This document shows positions 26,543 to 38,336 of a stretch of DNA of 64,000 bases, piece by piece. The notes beneath the pieces are model-generated. The model had not been told where the DNA came from, ran no database searches, and saw only the letters and a program-made list of their open reading frames with translations. Origin of the DNA: Polynucleobacter asymbioticus (GTDB lineage Bacteria > Pseudomonadota > Gammaproteobacteria > Burkholderiales > Burkholderiaceae); contig NZ_CP061297.1 in assembly GCF_018687575.1 (NCBI RefSeq), positions 1,742,821-1,806,820 of the forward strand, in the 5' to 3' direction. The position numbers and the translations under genes are program-made. Each line of letters starts with the position of its first letter. The stretch's first letter is position 1.

Positions 26543-27175
26543 ATGGTCTATATGCACGGCAATTCTCCAAAATCGCTACGGCAAGACTTGCTAGCCCAAA
26601 GGAAACAGTTTGCGGCTAGCGCAAGCTATTCCATAGCTCAAGAAGCCATTTTGGCTAGCCTAGCTGCTTTTCTAGAGAACCATGACACCCAAATTCAATC
26701 CATAGCCTTGTATTGCCCTATACAAGATGAGCCTGACCTAAGACCCGCACTACTAGCATGGGCTCAGAGTAAGACAGGTAGAGCGTTAGCTCTTCCATTT
26801 GCGCGTCCCGATAAGCATCTGGATTTTTATGCCTGGGAAGCGGGGGATCTCCTGATTCCTAGTCGCCATGGCGTGCCGGAGCCGGATCCCAATAACCCTC
26901 GCAGACCTCAAGTCACTCCAGACTGCATCCTGATTCCCTGCGTAGGCTGGTCAGAATCCAGGGTGGGCGATAAAACACATTATTGGCGGCTTGGGTATGG
27001 GGGTGGCTACTTTGACCGCACCCTAGCCCAGTTGCGTAAAGCTAAACCAAGCCTACTGTGCGTAGGCATTGGCTTTGATTGGCAAAAATTAGAGGATTCT
27101 CATTGGCAGGCTCAAGCGCATGATGAGCCTTTAGATGCCATGCTGACTGAGTCAGGCTTATTCATTACTTATTGA
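26543..27175 (+). CDS. 5-formyltetrahydrofolate cyclo-ligase
   Basis: 210 aa. Converts 5-formyl-THF to 5,10-methenyl-THF using ATP, returning stored folate to the one-carbon pool that MetF uses. Recognised by the N-terminal LRQDLLAQRKQFA helix, YCPIQDEPDLRPAL and the ATP-site RLGYGGGYFDRTLAQL. The first ATG is used; an ATG three codons on is also possible. It overlaps metF by 11 bp tail to tail. Confidence 0.9.
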   Translation: MVYMHGNSPKSLRQDLLAQRKQFAASASYSIAQEAILASLAAFLENHDTQIQSIALYCPIQDEPDLRPALLAWAQSKTGRALALPFARPDKHLDFYAWEAGDLLIPSRHGVPEPDPNNPRRPQVTPDCILIPCVGWSESRVGDKTHYWRLGYGGGYFDRTLAQLRKAKPSLLCVGIGFDWQKLEDSHWQAQAHDEPLDAMLTESGLFITY

Positions 27176-27995
27176 GACTGAGATTGTCTGCAATCGCTAA
27201 AACAGCATCTGCCTGATTGAGTGAATAAAAATGTAGTCCAGGTGCGCCAGCCACTAAAAGCTGATCACACAGATCTGTCACCACTTCCTCACCAAACGCA
27301 CGAATCGAAGCGGTGTCATCGCCATAAGACTGCAAACGCAAACGAATCCAACGCGGAATTTCTGCGCCACAGGCATCAGAAAAACGCAGTAGCTGAGTAC
27401 TGTTAGTAATTGGCATGATTCCAGCAATCACTGGCTGAGTAACGCCCAAGTCATAGGCCTCATCCACAAAGCGGAAATAGGCGTCGCTGTTATAGAAATA
27501 CTGAGTCACTGCTGAATTAGCTCCAGCTTTCATCTTCTGCACAAAGAAATCCACATCCGTCGCCGGCGACTTGGCCTGAGGATGACATTCTGGATAGGCG
27601 GCTACATCAATATGAAACCAGTCACCAGTTTCTGCACGAATAAATTCGACTAATTCATTGGCATGATGGAACTCACCATACTGGCCCATGCCAGATGGTA
27701 AGTCGCCACGTAAAGCCACAATCCGCTTAACACCTAAAGCTTGGTACTGCTTCAACATTTCGCGCACGCTTTCACGTGAACTACCAACGCAAGATAAGTG
27801 GGGGGCAACCGCTGCACCTGCAGCGTGAATATCGCTCACCACTTTCAATGTGCCAGATTGTGTAGAGCCACCGGCACCAAAAGTCACAGAATAAAAAGCG
27901 GGCTTGAGCGTTTCACTAAAACGCTCGCGCACGAGATGCAGCTTATTCTCACCTTCAGGTGTTTTTGGAGGGAAGAATTCAACGCTTAATTCCAT
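27165..27995 (-). CDS. metF: 5,10-methylenetetrahydrofolate reductase
   Basis: 276-aa FAD-dependent TIM-barrel enzyme that makes the 5-methyl-THF used by methionine synthase. Markers are EFFPPKTPEGE at the N-terminus (catalytic Glu), SVTFGAGGST, LRGDLP and the GIMPITN segment. It lies 55 bp after ahcY on the same strand, so it is probably under the SAH riboswitch as ahcY-metF. Confidence 0.96.
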   Translation of the reverse strand: MELSVEFFPPKTPEGENKLHLVRERFSETLKPAFYSVTFGAGGSTQSGTLKVVSDIHAAGAAVAPHLSCVGSSRESVREMLKQYQALGVKRIVALRGDLPSGMGQYGEFHHANELVEFIRAETGDWFHIDVAAYPECHPQAKSPATDVDFFVQKMKAGANSAVTQYFYNSDAYFRFVDEAYDLGVTQPVIAGIMPITNSTQLLRFSDACGAEIPRWIRLRLQSYGDDTASIRAFGEEVVTDLCDQLLVAGAPGLHFYSLNQADAVLAIADNLSLNK

Positions 27996-28050: not shown

Positions 28051-29496
28051 TTAATAACGATAGTGGTCAGCCTTGTATGGGCCTTCCTTCGTTACACCAA
28101 TGTAAGAAGCTTGCTGATCTGACAATACAGTTAACTGTGCATTCAATGTCTTGAGCTGCAAACGCGCAACCTTCTCATCCAAATGCTTTGGCAATGTATA
28201 AACACCAACTGGGTATTTATCTGTGCCAACTGCATTCCACAATTCAATCTGCGCAATCACTTGGTTCGCAAATGAAGAGCTCATGACATAAGATGGGTGA
28301 CCTGTACCGCAACCCAAGTTCACTAAGCGGCCTTTAGCCAAGATGATGATGCGCTTCTCGGGATTGCCATTCTCTGCTGGGAAAATCACGTGATCTACTT
28401 GTGGCTTGATTTCTTCCCACTTGTATTTCTCAATACCAGCAACATCAATCTCGTTATCGAAGTGGCCAATGTTACAAACAATGGCTTGATTCTTCATCTT
28501 CACCATGTGGTCATGTGTAATCACATGATAGTTACCAGTTGCTGAAACAAAGATATCTGCTTTATCTGCAGCGTAATCCATTGTGACAACGCGGTAGCCT
28601 TCCATCGCTGCTTGCAATGCACAGATTGGGTCTACTTCAGTAACCCAAACTTGAGCTGACAAAGCACGTAGAGCTTGGGCTGAACCTTTACCCACATCGC
28701 CGTAACCACAAACCACTGCAACCTTACCGGCAACCATGACGTCAGTAGCACGCTTGATCGCATCAACTAAAGATTCGCGGCAACCATAGAGGTTGTCGAA
28801 CTTGCTCTTAGTAACAGAATCGTTTACGTTAATTGCTGGGAACTTCAAGTCACCTTTAGCGAACATCTGATAGAGGCGATGTACACCAGTAGTAGTTTCT
28901 TCAGTTACGCCTTTTACTTTTTCTAAGCGTGTGGAATACCAAGTTGGATCTTGCGCCAATTTCTTTTTAATAGCTGCAAACAAAATAGTTTCTTCTTCGC
29001 TGGTTGGATGATTCAAGCAAGCTTGATCTTTCTCAGCACGTGCACCGAGGTGCAATAACAAAGTGGCATCGCCACCGTCATCCAAAATCATATTGGTGAA
29101 GCCGCCATCAGCCCACTCAAAAATACGGTGGGTGTAATCCCAATACTGCTCAAGAGTTTCACCCTTGATCGCAAACACTGGAGTGCCATTGGCGGCAATC
29201 GCTGCAGCAGCGTGATCTTGTGTGGAGAAAATATTGCAAGATGCCCACTGCACTTCAGCGCCGAGCGCTTCAAGCGTCTCGATCAATACTGCAGTTTGAA
29301 TGGTCATGTGCAATGAGCCAGTGATACGCGCGCCACGCAATGGTTGCTGTGCTGCGAACTCGTCGCGAATCGCGATGAGGCCTGGCATTTCTGTTTCAGC
29401 AATGGCGATTTCTTTACGGCCAAAGTCAGCCAAAGAAATATCGGCAATAGCGCAACGGGTTGCTACAAAGTTGTTTAAATCGGAAACGGTACTCAT
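28051..29496 (-). CDS. ahcY: Adenosylhomocysteinase (SAH hydrolase)
   Basis: 481 aa. Splits S-adenosylhomocysteine into adenosine and homocysteine, relieving product inhibition of methyltransferases. Visible are [16 protein letters not shown], the long insertion of the plant/proteobacterial type, NAD-binding [20 protein letters not shown] and the C-terminal KADHYRY. The start is the ATG at 29496 (MSTVSDLNN), which has GGAG 5 nt upstream; a reading frame 20 codons longer exists but runs through the leader. Its leader carries an SAH riboswitch. Confidence 0.97.
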
Positions 29497-29501
29497 GAAT
29501 G

Positions 29502-29530
29502 CTCCAGCTAAATACGATCCAATGCTGGAG
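29502..29530 (-). promoter_or_regulatory. Hairpin that sequesters the ahcY ribosome-binding site
   Basis: In the ahcY leader CTCCAGC (29530-29524) is perfectly complementary to GCTGGAG (29508-29502), the latter containing the GGAG ribosome site 5 nt before the ATG. Formed, this 7-bp hairpin would hide the site. It is a candidate part of the riboswitch expression platform (inference). Confidence 0.55.
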
Positions 29531-29561
29531 TAGAAACTCGCTAGCCATTGAATCATGGGTT

Positions 29562-29668
29562 AGCGAGCGCAGTTGCAATTAGCAAACTCTGGGATTACCT
29601 AGGAGTCCACTCCCTTCAAGCCTGGGGAAACGCTGGTTCTCAGCATTCCTTGCAACGCTCCTTGAAGG
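29562..29668 (-). promoter_or_regulatory. SAH riboswitch controlling ahcY-metF
   Basis: The leader matches the S-adenosylhomocysteine riboswitch: P1 pairs CCUUCAAG (29668-29661) with CUUGAAGG (29620-29613). The conserved GGAGCGUUGCAA follows the 5' P1 strand, and P2 is GGAAnGCUG / CAGCnUUUCC. The pseudoknot is GAGCG with CGCUC (29569-29565), inside AACUGCGCUCGC. Downstream, CUCGCUA (29567-29561) can instead pair with UAGCGAG (29543-29537), and this pairing uses part of the pseudoknot strand, giving a mutually exclusive hairpin. SAH riboswitches known upstream of ahcY turn expression on when SAH is high. Confidence 0.88.
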
Positions 29669-29669
29669 T

Positions 29670-29709
29670 ATGGCGAAATTGTAATCAATTTCGCCATATT
29701 TCGCCTCAA
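29670..29709 (-). promoter_or_regulatory. 12-bp-arm palindrome over the probable ahcY promoter
   Basis: ATGGCGAAATTG-taat-CAATTTCGCCAT (29670-29697) is a perfect 28-nt inverted repeat between metK and the SAH riboswitch. On the minus strand a -10 TACAAT (29683-29678) lies inside it, placing transcription start a few nt before the aptamer. The only -35-like sequence is a weak TTGAGG (29709-29704) at 20 nt spacing. A third ATTTCGCC copy follows directly. No T run follows on the minus strand, so it is not an obvious metK terminator; it looks like an operator for an unidentified regulator. Confidence 0.55.
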
Positions 29710-29748
29710 TACAACTACTTACTGCAAATTTACCACTTAGAAGGCCGA

Positions 29749-30915
29749 TTACAGACCAGCTGCTGCACGTAAGGCAGGCGCTTTATCGCACTGCTCCCAA
29801 GTGAATTCCGGCTCTTCACGACCAAAGTGACCATAAGCAGCAGTCTTACGATAAATCGGACGTAAAAGGTTCAACATCTTCACGATGCCTTTTGGACGCA
29901 GGTCAAAGTGCTCAGATACTAGTTGTGCAATCTTCTCGTCAGAGATCTTGCCCGTGCCAAAGGTGCTCACCATCACTGAAGTTGGCTTCGCTACACCAAT
30001 CGCATAGGAGATCTGAATCAAGCACTTGCTTGCTAAACCAGCAGCAACTACGTTTTTCGCTACATAACGACCTGCATAGGCAGCGGAACGGTCAACCTTG
30101 GATGGATCCTTGCCAGAGAACGCGCCACCACCGTGAGGAGCCGCACCGCCGTAGGTGTCCACAATGATCTTGCGACCTGTCAGACCACAATCGCCTTGCG
30201 GGCCGCCGATAACAAATCGACCTGTTGGGTTTACCAAGAAGTTAATTGCGCCTTTGATCAAATGCTTAGGCAATACGGGCTTGATGATTTCTTCAATCAC
30301 TGCTTCACGCAACTTCTCCAAAGAAATATCTTCATCATGTTGTGTGGAAAGAACCACGGTGTCGATTGAGTCAGGCTTGCCATCAACATAGCGCAATGTC
30401 ACTTGTGACTTCGCATCAGGACGCAACCAATTTAAACGGCCATCACGGCGCAGTTGGGATTGACGCTCTACTAAGCGGTGTGACAAGTGGATTGGTAAAG
30501 GCATAAGCTCTGCAGTCTCATCACAGGCGTAACCAAACATCAAACCTTGGTCACCAGCGCCTTGATCTAAACCGTCGTCATGTGCTTTGTCAACACCTTG
30601 AGCAATGTCAGGACTCTGTTTGTCATAAGCCACCAACACGGCACAGCCTTTGTAATCAATACCGTAGTCAGTATTGTCGTAACCAATTTCACGCAAAGTA
30701 TTGCGAGCTACCTGGATATAATCTACATTGGCATTTGTTGTGATCTCACCAGCCAACACTACCAAGCCGGTATTACACAAAGTTTCTGCAGCAACGCGCG
30801 CAGTTGGGTCTTGAGCCAGGATTGAATCCAAGATGGCATCAGAGATTTGGTCTGCTACTTTATCGGGGTGACCTTCAGAAACCGATTCTGAGGTAAAGAA
30901 GTAATCATTTGCCAT
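29749..30915 (-). CDS. metK: S-adenosylmethionine synthetase
   Basis: 388 aa. Makes SAM from methionine and ATP. Signatures are [18 protein letters not shown] at the N-terminus, [12 protein letters not shown] around residue 120 and [19 protein letters not shown] for triphosphate binding. AAAGGA lies about 7-8 nt before the ATG. Preceded by a SAM-II-like riboswitch and a sigma-70 promoter, and followed on the same strand by ahcY and metF. Confidence 0.98.
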
Positions 30916-30982
30916 TGCATATTCCTTTAAAAATTAACACGATCTAAGGGACAACTCGACGTGCCAGGAACTACAACGGCGA

Positions 30983-31033
30983 CGCTTTAGCAGAATTTAT
31001 GAATCGCCCTGCAAGTTGCCTTAACTCAGCGAT
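30983..31033 (-). promoter_or_regulatory. Probable SAM-II (SAM-alpha) class riboswitch upstream of metK
   Basis: A 51-nt element with the compact H-type pseudoknot layout of SAM-II. P1 pairs AUCGCU (31033-31028) with GGCGAU (31008-31003). The class-conserved CUUGCAG lies at 31015-31009, followed by AUAAAU and then GCUAAAG (30991-30985). The pseudoknot can form between GCAG and CUGC. Downstream, UCGCC can re-pair with the 3' P1 strand, and GUUCCU (30971-30966) is complementary to AGGAAU at the metK ribosome site, a plausible switching route. SAM-II is best known from alphaproteobacterial met genes. The class call rests on recalled consensus, not a covariance search. Confidence 0.7.
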
Positions 31034-31039
31034 AGACGA

Positions 31040-31069
31040 ATTCTATCCGAAAAATGCCTTATTCATCAA
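31040..31069 (-). promoter_or_regulatory. Sigma-70 promoter of metK
   Basis: On the minus strand -35 TTGATG (31069-31064) and -10 TAGAAT (31045-31040) are separated by 18 nt. The predicted start of transcription falls within a few nt of the first base of the SAM-II-like aptamer, as expected for a riboswitch leader. Confidence 0.65.
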
Positions 31070-31118
31070 GCATCACCATAAATTTGGCCCTATCGCCCGC
31101 ATTGAATATCATTAGAGG

Positions 31119-31979
31119 GTGCGCAAACTCCTTCTCAAGCTAACCCTCGCTGCAATTGCAGTGTTGCCCTTGTTCCTAGTTCAGGTAATTGGGGCTGCCT
31201 TAGGGATACTGGCCTATCTAGGGTCGAAGCAATATCGATCACTTTTTCGCCCTCAATATGAGGCCGTTGTTAAGAGTCATCATTTACCCCTGCAAATTTG
31301 GCGTGCGGCGGCAGCCTCAGGACAGCTCTTTTCAGACAGCCTATGGATTTGGCGAAATCCCAAAAAAGCACTTGCCCTGGTTGAGGTACAAAACTGGGAT
31401 CTGGTTGAGGCAGCTATCAATGAAGGTCATGGCCTAGTCATGCTGACACCCCACCTAGGTGGCTTTGAAATCATTCCTCGAGTCTTAGCTCAGCACTTCC
31501 CGGCTACCATCCTCTATCGACCCTCACGTCAAGAATGGCTCAACGAAGTGGTGGAAGAAGGTCGGGCCTATCCCAATATGCATTTCGTGCCAACTAACCT
31601 GAATGGCGTTCGCCAGATGACGCGGGCGCTGACACGTGGAGAAGCCATTGGCATTCTTCCAGATCAAGTGCCTAGTGGCGGCGAAGGAGTTTGGGTACCC
31701 TTTTTCGGGCGCCCCGCCTATACAACCCCACTTCCTGCTCGCTTAGCCAATCGCAATAACACGCCGGTTGTGATGTTTACCGCTAAACGCAAAGGCCTTG
31801 GTAAAGGCTGGCTAATGCAGGCCAAGAGATTAGCGCCGCTCTCCGAAGACTCCATGCTTGCTGCTGCAGAACTCAATGTCGCAATTGAAAATGCGATCCT
31901 AGTTGCACCCAATCAATTCATCTGGGCCTATAACCGCTACAAACATCCCAGCGGAGCAGAATTACCACCAAGCAATTAG
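31119..31979 (+). CDS. LpxL/HtrB-family lysophospholipid or lipid A acyltransferase
   Basis: 286-aa inner-membrane acyltransferase with one N-terminal hydrophobic helix. The catalytic H(X4)E motif is seen in LTPHLGGFEIIPR near residue 110, and the ILPDQVP segment with VPFFGRPAYTTPLPARLA is typical of late acyltransferases that add a secondary acyl chain to lipid A. GTG start with AGAGG upstream. It is followed 25 bp later by a second family member, so the two probably act together. Confidence 0.85.
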   Translation: MRKLLLKLTLAAIAVLPLFLVQVIGAALGILAYLGSKQYRSLFRPQYEAVVKSHHLPLQIWRAAAASGQLFSDSLWIWRNPKKALALVEVQNWDLVEAAINEGHGLVMLTPHLGGFEIIPRVLAQHFPATILYRPSRQEWLNEVVEEGRAYPNMHFVPTNLNGVRQMTRALTRGEAIGILPDQVPSGGEGVWVPFFGRPAYTTPLPARLANRNNTPVVMFTAKRKGLGKGWLMQAKRLAPLSEDSMLAAAELNVAIENAILVAPNQFIWAYNRYKHPSGAELPPSN

Positions 31980-36626: not shown

Positions 36627-37200
36627 GTCGAACGCGGAACAGCGCTAGGCTTCCAAAAAGATTAGGCATCAAAGTAACCTGACGACCCTCATGCAAAATG
36701 CATTGATCCAGTATCTGCAAGCCCAAGCTCGAAGCTAGCTTTTCAAAATCGGCCACCGTGAGAACACGTACGTTAGGTGTGTTGTACCACTGGTATGGCA
36801 AGCTCTTAGAGACAGGCATGCGACCAAAGCCAACAGCCAGGCGATGAGACCAATGGCCAAAGTTTGGAAATGAAACAATCGACTCTTTACCAACTCGAAC
36901 CACTTCACGCAAGATCTTTTCAGTTTCATGAATGGTTTGTAATGTCTGGGAAAGCACTACCGTATCAAAGCTATGATTCTCAAAGAGCGCTAAGCCGCCT
37001 TCCAGATTTTGCTGAATGACGTTCAAGCCTTTTTGTACACAAGACAGCACGCGCGCATCATCAATTTCAACTCCATAAGCGTGCACCGGTTTTTGCTTTT
37101 GCAAATACTCCAAGAAGCTTCCGTCACCACAGCCAAGATCCAACACTTCACTATTGGGCGCAATCCAATTCGCTATTGCGGCAAAGTCTGCGCGCTTCAT
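36619..37200 (-). CDS. metW: Methionine biosynthesis protein MetW
   Basis: 193-aa class I methyltransferase-fold protein. SAM-binding motif [15 protein letters not shown] at residue 20, YGVEID, and the family's [13 protein letters not shown] and SFPNFGHW. MetW works with MetX in methionine synthesis in Pseudomonas and relatives; its biochemical role is not settled. It overlaps metX by 4 bp. Confidence 0.93.
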
Positions 37201-38336
37201 GATTGAGCCTCTAGCATTTGTTCAAAATAAGCACGAATCAGATTGTGATATCTCGGATCATCTAATAAGAAAGCATCATGCCCATGTGGTGCATCAATCT
37301 CTGCATAACTGACCTCACTCTTATTGCTGAGTAAAGACTCCACAATTTCACGACTGCGATTAGGCGGGAAACGCCAATCGGTGGAAAAGCTTACGACTAA
37401 AAACTTGGCTTGCACTTCAGCAAGGGCGCGATTCAAGCTACCCTCATAACGACGAGAAGGGTCAAAGTAATCTAGCGCTCGGGTAATCAGTAAATAAGTA
37501 TTGGCATCAAAGTAAGTGGAGAACTTATCGCCTTGGTGGCGCAAATAACTTTCTACCTCAAATTCCACATCAAAGCTGAAGCGGTAGTCTTGGGATTCAC
37601 CGCTAGGTCTTTGTAACTCGCGCCCAAACTTTTCTGCCATGTCATCATCTGACAGGTAGGTAATGTGCCCAACCATGCGAGCTAGTCTGAGGCCGCGCTT
37701 TGGCACTACGCCATGTTCGTAGTAGTTACCACCATGAAAATCCGGGTCAGACAAAATGGCATTACGAGCCACTTCATTAAATGCAATGTTCTGCGCGCTC
37801 AGTTTTGGTGTCGAAGCAATGACCAAGCAATGGGCAAGTCGTTTTGGGAACTGGATAGACCAAGCTAATGCTTGCATACCACCCAAGCTTCCACCCATTA
37901 CCGCAGCAAAACGACGAATGCCCAACTTATCAGCTAAACGCGCCTGAGTATTCACCCAATCTTCCACCGTGATCACTGGGAAATCTGCGCCATAAGGCTT
38001 ACTGGTGGCCGGATTGATACTCATTGGCCCAGTGGATCCGAAGCAAGAACCTAAGTTGTTAACGCCGATAACAAAGAAGTGATTTGTATCTACTGGCTTA
38101 CCTGGCCCAATCATGTTGTCCCACCAGCCGATATCTTTTGCATCATCGGGATTGGGTCCAGCCACGTGGTGTGATGCATTCAGCGCATGACAAACCAGCA
38201 CGGCATTACTTTTATCGGCATTGAGCTTGCCGTAGGTTTCAATAACTAAATCGTAGCCCGATAAGATGGCGCCACTTTGCAAAGGCAAGGGCTCGGCAAA
38301 ATGGATAGTGTTTCTAGAGAGATGTAGCTCGCTCAT
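37197..38336 (-). CDS. metX: Homoserine O-acyltransferase MetX (acetyl or succinyl)
   Basis: 379-aa alpha/beta hydrolase that activates homoserine at the entry to methionine synthesis. The nucleophile elbow is [13 protein letters not shown] (Ser near residue 150), with [13 protein letters not shown] and the C-terminal [12 protein letters not shown] supplying the Asp/His of the triad. Sequence family alone does not tell acetyl- from succinyl-CoA use: many Burkholderiales MetX are classed as succinyltransferases. Sandwiched between slmA and metW with 4-bp overlaps on both sides. Confidence 0.94.

Follow-up and report, generated by a model that had tools for sequence, protein, structure and literature searches.

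The 64-kb window, by which we mean the whole stretch of DNA analyzed here from the freshwater bacterium Polynucleobacter, carries metK, ahcY, and metF in series on the reverse strand. These identities had been proposed in a first-pass annotation, and all three were supported by NCBIfam models scoring above their cut-offs:

29749..30915, reverse strand: metK, S-adenosylmethionine synthetase (TIGR01034, 611.6 bits against a cut-off of 309.4)
28051..29496, reverse strand: ahcY, adenosylhomocysteinase (TIGR00936, 582.1 bits against 497.6)
27165..27995, reverse strand: metF, methylenetetrahydrofolate reductase (TIGR00676, 307.7 bits against 293.7)

The start of ahcY was set at 29496, with the open frame extending to 29556. 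A gap of 55 bp separates ahcY from metF. The latter lacks a separate switch and is presumed to be cotranscribed with ahcY. The leaders of metK and ahcY each hold an aptamer-like RNA element, the two lying on one strand with ~1.3 kb between them, just as first described. The elements of the ahcY leader are as follows:

29669..29699, reverse strand: inverted repeat GGCGAAATTG-ATTA-CAATTTCGCC between metK and the SAH aptamer, read from the sequence
29558..29669, reverse strand: SAH riboswitch aptamer, RF01057 (47.6 bits, gathering score 37, E 1.1e-5)
29537..29568, reverse strand: hairpin CUCGCUA...UAGCGAG, its 5′ arm overlapping the 3′ strand of the SAH aptamer, in predicted folds of the window's leader
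29502..29530, reverse strand: hairpin CUCCAGC...GCUGGAG, burying the ahcY Shine-Dalgarno (SD) sequence GGAG, in predicted folds of the window's leader

The SAH riboswitch previously proposed to head ahcY was thus recovered above its gathering score; it aligns to the whole RF01057 model (positions 1–78) and ends 61 nt ahead of the ahcY ATG. No other Rfam match in the window reaches its gathering score, and the 1.84-Mb genome contains no further RF01057 match. A pattern search placed an SAH core directly 3′ of metK in 76 of the 80 Polynucleobacter loci, the other four having either a variant core (L079 and L080) or a contig end too near (L019 and L061). Of 78 Polynucleobacter loci, 68 show the inverted repeat upstream of the aptamer as a perfect match of 11 bp or more. 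The TACAAT within the repeat may represent the ahcY −10 box; the promoter pattern scan made no −10 call there. The CUCGCUA...UAGCGAG hairpin is a candidate OFF-state hairpin of the ahcY leader, a similar hairpin being predicted in six of the eight ahcY leaders folded (L034 and L054 fold differently), and the terminator pattern scan gave none at its position. Leyn 2014 places ahcY and metF in the core regulon of the SAH riboswitch and describes metK as not controlled by SAH riboswitches. The ahcY element here is a plain member of RF01057, differing in that it adjoins a separate metK element.

The features of the metK leader are as follows:

31040..31069, reverse strand: putative sigma-70-like promoter of metK, TTGATG – 18 nt – TAGAAT (pattern scan, 9/12 matches)
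30974..31036, reverse strand: SAM-II-like aptamer of metK (covariance model R2, 64.2 bits, E 8.3e-16; R1, whose training set includes this leader, 76.9 bits)
31003..31033, reverse strand: helix P1, AUCGCU (31033–31028) with GGCGAU (31008–31003), around the third-strand segment GAGUUAA (covariation)
30981..31020, reverse strand: pseudoknot helix P2, GGC/GUC, CUU/AAG, and GCAG/CUGC, between 31020–31009 and 30993–30981 (covariation)
30911..30980, reverse strand: expression-platform hairpin, GCCGUUGUAGUUCCU with AGGAAUAUGCAAUGGC, the latter holding the metK SD and start codon (minimum-free-energy folds and shuffled spacers)

The promoter scan alone carries little weight, since the region has fewer promoter-like sites than its shuffles (2 against a mean of 5.1). 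The −10-like block is kept across Polynucleobacter metK leaders, and the putative promoter would set the RNA start near the first pairs of the aptamer.

The first-pass annotation had called the metK leader a SAM-II-like element, to be given up should a covariance search find no significant match. For the window's own sequence, RF00521 (SAM-II, SAM_alpha) indeed gave no match at E ≤ 10, and neither did any other Rfam family across 30850–31200. This failure is outweighed by the metK leaders of relatives, which support a SAM-II-like aptamer. R2, trained on 24 metK leaders from genera other than Polynucleobacter, identified the window's leader, with the next-best site in the window at only 11.6 bits. 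It likewise found all 80 fetched Polynucleobacter metK loci at 58.9–70.1 bits (next best 15.5), with one strong site per genome, including L038 and L081, which lack the exact GCTAAAGCG used for selection and were left out of the alignments.

RF00521 itself matched directly upstream of metK in one other Polynucleobacter genome (G016; 20.9 bits, E 0.015 for that single genome) and aligned at full length to three metK leaders of other genera (20.4, 19.8, and 16.6 bits). Such E-values are weak by themselves because 2 of 14 control genomes also matched at E ≤ 0.1, none above the cut-off. Just 4 of 20 metK leaders tested matched RF00521 at E ≤ 5. One of these four, G204, is canonical: its metK is preceded by an RF00521 aptamer that passes the threshold (41.7 bits), and next in line come an SAH riboswitch and ahcY. 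Conversely, R1 matches canonical RF00521 loci preceding metX (L112 and L117) and metZ (L114 and L115), as these genes were identified by eye. Given that the metK leaders reach 16–21 bits where they match at all, below the gathering score of 36 bits, we have not filed the element under RF00521; what holds of the original assignment is a SAM-II-like variant, and membership of RF00521 by the Rfam threshold does not. The models for SAM-V (RF01826), SAM-II long loops (RF01726), and the SAM/SAH riboswitch had no match in the window (E ≤ 10) or in the 20 leaders (E ≤ 5).

An H-type pseudoknot, in which P1 is joined by L1 pairing to the 3′ tail as P2, is present in the metK leaders, and both helices covary. 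Alignment A1 comprised 45 sequences (34 leaders from the order, 10 of the 80 Polynucleobacter loci, and the window), with the canonical G204 deliberately excluded. The pair count took 35 of these, ten being dropped before it and before R1: G114, G134, G142, G161, G178, G186, G220, G227, and G243, which are out of register owing to a one-base-shorter spacer, and G109, which has a long insert. R1 nevertheless recovers all ten before metK at 40.8–63.7 bits. In P1, four of six pairs are changed on both sides and two are invariant, with 96.7% of cells paired across the 35 sequences; in P2, 11 pairs were counted, of which four are changed on both sides and five are invariant (94.7% of cells paired; 95.4% for P1 and P2 together). 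An extra outer pair of P2 forms in 11 of the 25 sequences having letters there. Double changes affect 8 pairs and 48 cells, compared to 4.9 and 16.7 in shuffles, with 0 of 500 shuffles reaching these values and slid controls giving at most 15 double-change cells; one covariation measure, the count of further standard pair types, was not raised (16 against 17.1 in shuffles).

These data bear on whether the SAM-II resemblance arose by chance, with the conserved block reflecting promoter or coding constraint. The lack of an Rfam match at the window's metK leader and the chance occurrence of weak RF00521 scores in the control genomes would fit such a coincidence. It is already refuted, however, by the covariation, the R2 match on the window (E 8e-16), and the 80 of 80 congeneric loci, and both the one strong site per genome and the R1 matches on RF00521 loci weigh against it as well; we give it practically no credence.

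PMC11508383 lists the SAM contacts in SAM-II as U10, U11, A19, U20, U21, U44, A45, and A47, a numbering that we carried over to the metK leaders ourselves. Six of the eight equivalents never vary across A2 (35 sequences), namely U11, U20, U21, U44, A45, and A47; the A19 equivalent is a C in nearly all metK leaders, as it is in the RF00521 consensus. Position 10, a U in SAM-II, is a G in 28 of the 34 order variants and a U in the other 6; every one of the 11 Polynucleobacter rows in A1 (window included) has the G. Together with a P2b unlike that of canonical SAM-II, this could indicate a SAM-II-derived aptamer with a changed ligand, such as SAH, methionine, or another SAM relative. At other genes, a SAM-II match can be followed by the variant within one and the same leader, which counts toward the same reading as a second sensor of the same ligand would be partly redundant. 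The equivalents of U11, U21, U44, and A45, which should face the sulfonium and adenine, are nonetheless invariant, U and G swap at position 10 among the metK leaders, and product feedback on metK predicts SAM, so that we consider a changed ligand unlikely and SAM the probable one.

Downstream of the aptamer, the metK SD (30923–30928, ~52 nt past P2) pairs in a separate hairpin, and both it and the AUG are buried in the predicted folds. Among the order leaders, SD pairing averaged 0.88, compared to 0.62 with shuffled spacers, and exceeded the shuffle mean in 34/34; the corresponding values in Polynucleobacter were 0.90 and 0.60 (79/81), with 0.999 against 0.63 for the AUG. Taken leader by leader, only 17 of the 34 order leaders had two or fewer of 40 shuffles with equal SD pairing, and for the window's leader 7/40 shuffles were equal for the SD and 0/40 for the AUG. 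L078 and G178, which were cut at an earlier GCTAAA and thus folded over a longer stretch, are still counted here. Both stem strands are altered in L079, yet pairing over 12 bp persists. The whole metK leader folds modestly better than its shuffles (z −1.74, 10/200 as good).

Several alternative structures were considered. A GGCGA/UCGCC antagonist helix lacked covariation and was paired in 81.7% of cases, compared to 81.8% in shuffles, and no antagonist helix was kept across the order. Anti-aptamer pairing, searched with three query segments in 41 leaders, was enriched only for the L1/P2 segment (10/41 at rank ≤ 0.05), the ten including all seven Polynucleobacter representatives and the enrichment being confined to this genus and one other family. 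A long hairpin (GRCAAC/GUUGUC, with inner helices) is 14 kcal/mol less stable than the minimum, and we retain it only as a possible alternative (ON) fold. The pattern scan found no intrinsic terminator 3′ of the metK aptamer; SD burial was preferred over a weak candidate, the hairpin GGCACG/CGUGUU with its U run.

The SD hairpin is very stable alone (−25.9 kcal/mol), and SAM dependence therefore does not follow from the fold. This stability without ligand, along with the lack of an antagonist helix kept across the order, would suit control by a protein or by translation itself, whereby ribosomes or an RNA-binding protein open the SD/start-codon hairpin and no metabolite takes part. One would not expect a protein site to retain the SAM-II pseudoknot and ligand-pocket nucleotides over 13 families, and we regard this explanation as very improbable compared to a SAM-sensing leader.

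The element precedes metK in at least 43 of the 148 order-sample genomes having metK, the canonical G204 being one of the 43, and in 13 of 51 families, at most 105 of the 148 having no element before metK; all of these counts refer to the matches listed. G199 appears by eye to have a degenerate metK element and was kept out of the counts. Counted by hand, 16 of the 43 element-bearing genomes have an SAH riboswitch within 2 kb downstream on the same strand, three of the 16 being Polynucleobacter, including the window's own genome. The proposed pairing of two RNA sensors in one metK-ahcY-metF series is thus well supported and recurrent; since the two switches occupy separate leaders, the term tandem riboswitch does not strictly apply.

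The metK element shares with RF00521 the H-type P1/P2 pseudoknot, the third strand G-A-x-U-U-A/G-A, the CUUGC and GCUAAA motifs, and a position before SAM/methionine genes. It differs in having mostly GAGUUAA where SAM-II has GAUUUGA, a GAC/GUC P2b with an AA x C internal loop, a variable insert 3′ of P1, and an SD-burying hairpin downstream with no terminator by pattern. SAM-V, described in PMC6061858 as a SAM-II-like core working as a translational OFF switch, sits behind a SAM-II in Pelagibacter (PMC11508383), just as the metK-type variant stands behind SAM-II matches in this order. In contrast to SAM-V, whose SD lies in P2a directly 3′ of the aptamer, the metK SD pairs in its own predicted hairpin farther 3′. 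SAM-II long loops is an earlier SAM-II variant family of Bacteroidetes and marine sequences (PMC2864571), likewise a SAM-II variant but one whose model is unmatched here. The same paper describes RNA elements at metK, the SAM-Chlorobi motif and the SAM/SAH riboswitch, with a location at metK and ahcY operons in Chlorobi; these are other RNA families without a match here, with one motif there compared to two sensors here. Leyn 2014 also reports a beta-proteobacterial metXZ element, a pseudoknotted metX/metZ leader followed by a terminator. This element, which is not at metK, is probably SAM-II, given that above-threshold RF00521 matches in this order precede genes that look by eye like metX and metZ.

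Overall, we consider it probable that a SAM-II-like aptamer before metK, acting as a SAM-dependent OFF switch, and an SAH-dependent ON switch at ahcY-metF work as a joint circuit in this organism; the ligands, the direction of control, and the joining of the two switches are what we infer from the features above. The metK leader would form an H-type pseudoknot that has the core of SAM-II, with P2b and the third strand altered. Plentiful SAM would fold this aptamer, and the metK ribosome-binding site and start codon would then be hidden in the hairpin that begins immediately 3′ of it, so that MetK may be made only when SAM is short. Rising SAH would in turn cause the SAH riboswitch to free expression of ahcY and of metF behind it. 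High SAM would thereby mean less SAM synthesis, and high SAH more SAH removal and 5-methyl-THF supply.

A broader reading, which we think rather doubtful, is that the metK-type RNA is a separate translation-acting class of the SAM-II superfamily in this and neighboring orders, a counterpart of marine SAM-V that stands alone at metK and second behind terminator-linked SAM-II within the same leader. Its changes at position 10 and P2b may then shift the ligand, with double leaders computing on two ligands instead of sharpening the response to one.

Leyn 2014 reports no regulator or element for beta-proteobacterial metK, with control judged not conserved or the gene constitutive; in the order sample, a conserved SAM-II-like RNA, mostly below the Rfam detection limit, lies before this gene in the 13 families. 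The metK element suggests a translational SAM-II branch beyond the marine alpha-proteobacteria. An RNA much like a known SAM sensor heads metK, whose product makes the methyl donor SAM, and a recognized SAH sensor heads ahcY, whose product clears the by-product SAH, so that RNA may sense the methylation cycle on both of its sides. Side by side, the two elements would let RNA alone gauge the balance of SAM and SAH in compact form, and the locus offers directly testable sensor pairs.

The window (positions 1,742,821–1,806,820 of a 1.84-Mb, single-contig genome) belongs to the genus Polynucleobacter, since its MetK shares 100% identity with the protein of several isolates of that genus. The locus reads on the reverse strand:

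27165–27995, minus strand: metF (NCBIfam)
28051–29496, minus strand: ahcY (NCBIfam)
29558–29669, minus strand: SAH element RF01057 (cmscan, Rfam 15; 47.6 bits, E 1.1e-5)
29749–30915, minus strand: metK (NCBIfam)
30974–31036, minus strand: SAM-II-like element of metK (covariance model R2; 64.2 bits, E 8.3e-16; second-best site in the window 11.6 bits)

The first-pass annotation had placed an SAH riboswitch at the head of ahcY, and the RF01057 search bore this out; the match is the only one to any Rfam family at or above its gathering score across the whole window (cmscan, Rfam 15), and RF01057 matches nowhere else in the genome. Given that RF01057 exceeds its cut-off in 124 of 150 genomes sampled from the order (presumably Burkholderiales) and that the SAH core, located by pattern rather than covariance model, lies within 120 nt behind metK in 76 of 80 fetched Polynucleobacter metK loci, the element is an ordinary member of its family. 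Two loci (L079 and L080) carry a variant form of the core, and two others (L019 and L061) are on contigs that end before the SAH position. Separately, an inverted repeat of 11–14 bp lies between metK and the SAH aptamer (29669–29699), as it does in 68 of 78 congeners; in six of eight sequences compared, the core is AATTG-WTTA-CAATT or a truncated version of it, the arms varying in sequence yet remaining complementary, and the repeat could be an operator, a promoter, or an RNA hairpin.

In predicted folds of the window's ahcY leader, a hairpin (CUCGCUA...UAGCGAG) occupies the 3′ strand of the SAH aptamer, and a second masks the ahcY Shine-Dalgarno (SD) sequence. The first hairpin, or a similar one, was present in six of eight folded ahcY leaders (absent in L034 and L054), and a terminator scan returned nothing at its position. 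SAH riboswitches follow an ON logic, with which these predicted folds agree.

The SAM-II-like element that the same annotation had assigned to metK was at first sight refuted on the annotation's own terms, as the leader gave no match to RF00521 (SAM_alpha, i.e., SAM-II) at E ≤ 10, and no Rfam family matched positions 30850–31200 at that threshold. Comparison with relatives overturned this null result. An alignment of 81 Polynucleobacter metK leaders, the window's among them and 77 of them distinct, shows a near-invariant block with diverging flanks. R2, built from 24 metK leaders exclusively of other genera, picked out the metK leader at every one of the 80 Polynucleobacter loci at 58.9–70.1 bits (next best 15.5), and over the whole window genome its second-best match reached 19.7 bits; both R2 and R1, a model that includes Polynucleobacter, gave a single strong match there, at metK. 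Together with the pseudoknot covariation described below, this identifies a real SAM-II-like element that Rfam misses. We have kept it out of RF00521, as it scored below the gathering score of that family.

RF00521 itself matched 86 of the 150 order genomes at E ≤ 0.1, 26 of them above the cut-off, compared with two and none, respectively, of 14 control genomes; since two controls also match at E ≤ 0.1, low scores alone mean little. Just upstream of metK, the family was found at three places, in G016 (a Polynucleobacter, 20.9 bits), G220 (20.4 bits), and G204 (41.7 bits), of which only G204 exceeds the cut-off, with the gene order SAM-II, metK, SAH riboswitch, ahcY. At E ≤ 5, four of 20 metK leaders matched (G204 at 41.7 bits, the other three at 16.6–20.4), and the alignments span the full model. 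Among 100 metK leaders, spread over genera and taken from the 148 order genomes with metK, a pattern search found the element in 35, including the canonical G204 (32 with a stricter pattern). With R1, the element precedes metK in at least 43 of these 148 genomes, in 13 of 51 families (counted by hand among matches listed to E 2e-6, G204 included). As side observations on metK in the genus, two Polynucleobacter genomes carry a diverged second MetK copy of 68–69% identity (G039:C2:10924-12081 and G008:C7:7674-8825), and neither metK nor its leader was found in another (G033; one contig, listed as 100% complete), where the best R2 match scored 20.4 bits.

In an alignment of 35 metK leaders, ten of an initial 45 having been set aside, the pseudoknot formed by P1 and P2 is paired in 95.4% of cells. 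Changes on both sides affected 8 pairs and 48 cells, against shuffled means of 4.9 and 16.7 that none of 500 shuffles raised to these values, and the covariation score was 0.245 against 0.128; sliding the partners by 1–3 columns left at most 15 double-changed cells. Examples in P2 include GAC/GUC to AAC/GUU and GCAG/CUGC to GCGG/CCGC, with the outermost P2 pair present in just 11 of 25 sequences. Further pair types did not exceed shuffles (16 vs. 17.1). The equivalents of SAM-II U11, U12, U20, U21, G22, C23, and G42–A47 are invariant. Most order variants (28 of 34) have G at position 10; the other six (G117, G152, G163, G200, G206, and G245) have U. The contact sites for SAM, in the numbering of the accessible text of PMC11508383, are U10, U11, A20, U21, U22, U46, A47, and A49 (conversion between numberings is ours). 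The part of PMC6061858 available on SAM-V explains what the sulfonium-facing triple and the adenine-pairing U do, and describes SAM binding by SAM-II as virtually identical. The metK element should function like SAM-II.

Directly 3′ of P2 starts a stem, GCCGUUGUAGUUCCU / AGGAAUAUGCAAUGGC, that in the predicted fold buries the metK SD sequence and AUG. With only the spacer shuffled (40 shuffles per leader), mean SD pairing in 34 order leaders was 0.88 vs. 0.62, each of the 34 lying above its own shuffle mean and 17 reached by at most 2 of 40 shuffles; in 81 Polynucleobacter leaders, which are not independent as congeners, it was 0.90 vs. 0.60 (79 of 81 above). For the window leader, 7 of 40 shuffles reached the SD value and none the AUG value. 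Since predicted AUG pairing was 0.999 vs. 0.63 in Polynucleobacter (again non-independent congeners) and 0.38, below the shuffles (0.51), in the order, start-codon burial is, in these models, a trait of Polynucleobacter and not of the order at large. The SD stem is altered on both strands in L079, retaining 12 bp of pairing, and is also altered in L075–L078 and L081. No covariation was seen in GGCGA/UCGCC, a candidate opener of the SD stem, and GRCAACUUGC showed enriched pairing to the spacer downstream of it solely in Polynucleobacter and one other family.

At least 16 of the 150 order genomes also have the variant as the second aptamer of a double leader, where its start lies 95–174 nt after that of another SAM-II-like match (R1, by hand). 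The first aptamer is an RF00521 match in 11 and an R1 match in five, both aptamers then being R1 matches; in several leaders, a hairpin and T run that by eye resemble a terminator separate the two. Downstream lie a small open frame and a MATE transporter (Pfam MatE in three of three tested, the rest by eye). At 15 double-aptamer loci, Rfam matched the variant aptamer in none at E ≤ 0.05. These leaders look like the same design as the Pelagibacter SAM-II/SAM-V pair, which acts at both transcription and translation according to the available text of PMC11508383, but differ in the second part.

Several further observations concern SAM-II-like leaders. Double leaders (L234–L237, L239–L248, L250, L221, L226, and L227; L235 with GCTAAA cores at 277 and 447) precede the small open frame and MATE transporter or other genes, and two genomes of other orders of the class (G492 and G604) have ten and six R1 matches, several paired. 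A metK-type variant precedes a gene whose product has an AAA_5 ATPase domain in L232, L223, and L227; L232:3096-3219 (minus strand) also matches RF01725 (SAM-I/IV) at 44.9 bits (gathering score 41.1), perhaps by chance in GC-rich DNA. RF02424 (Bp2_287), a candidate sRNA family from Burkholderia, gives matches under its gathering score that run antisense to SAM-II leaders (L188:196-314, minus strand; L235, L236, L221, and L242), and may be the SAM-II leader read in reverse. Above-threshold RF00521 aptamers precede metX and metZ (genes by eye) in L112, L114, L115, and L117, so that the "novel metXZ element" of Leyn et al. is probably SAM-II; in the window genome, metX (37197–38336, minus strand) overlaps the gene upstream and therefore has no leader.

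In the accessible parts of Leyn et al. 2014 (PMC4239095), SAM_alpha is reported from Rhizobiales and Rhodobacterales alone, beta-proteobacterial ahcY and metF have SAH riboswitches, and metK there has no known regulator, the authors' search for one having been unsuccessful. SAM-II in beta-proteobacteria is already mentioned in the available text of Barrick and Breaker 2007 (PMC2258182), tied there to transcription terminators, and of Meyer et al. 2009 (PMC2704228). Brewer et al. 2021 (PMC8632094) searched P. necessarius intergenic regions and describe other motifs, in a main text without the word metK, and in the accessible text of PMC12452182, which examined contiguous riboswitches in 2025, SAM_alpha appears once and metK does not appear. 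None of the openly accessible main texts consulted on SAM-II and other SAM riboswitches at metK or in these bacteria reports the metK element.

An SAH riboswitch lies within 2 kb downstream of the metK element, on the same strand, in 16 of the 43 genomes and within about 3.1 kb in 19 (by hand); among the rest, some have the two on separate contigs and others have them at a great distance, and for a few no SAH match above the cut-off is listed. SAM would stabilize the metK pseudoknot, favor the SD hairpin, and lower metK translation, a step most likely from the kinship of the element, its conserved pocket nucleotides, and its position before metK. SAH would stabilize the second aptamer and raise ahcY-metF expression, likewise most likely, given the RF01057 membership of the ahcY leader. 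The two together may give the locus a joint SAM/SAH logic; the side-by-side layout itself recurs across genomes.
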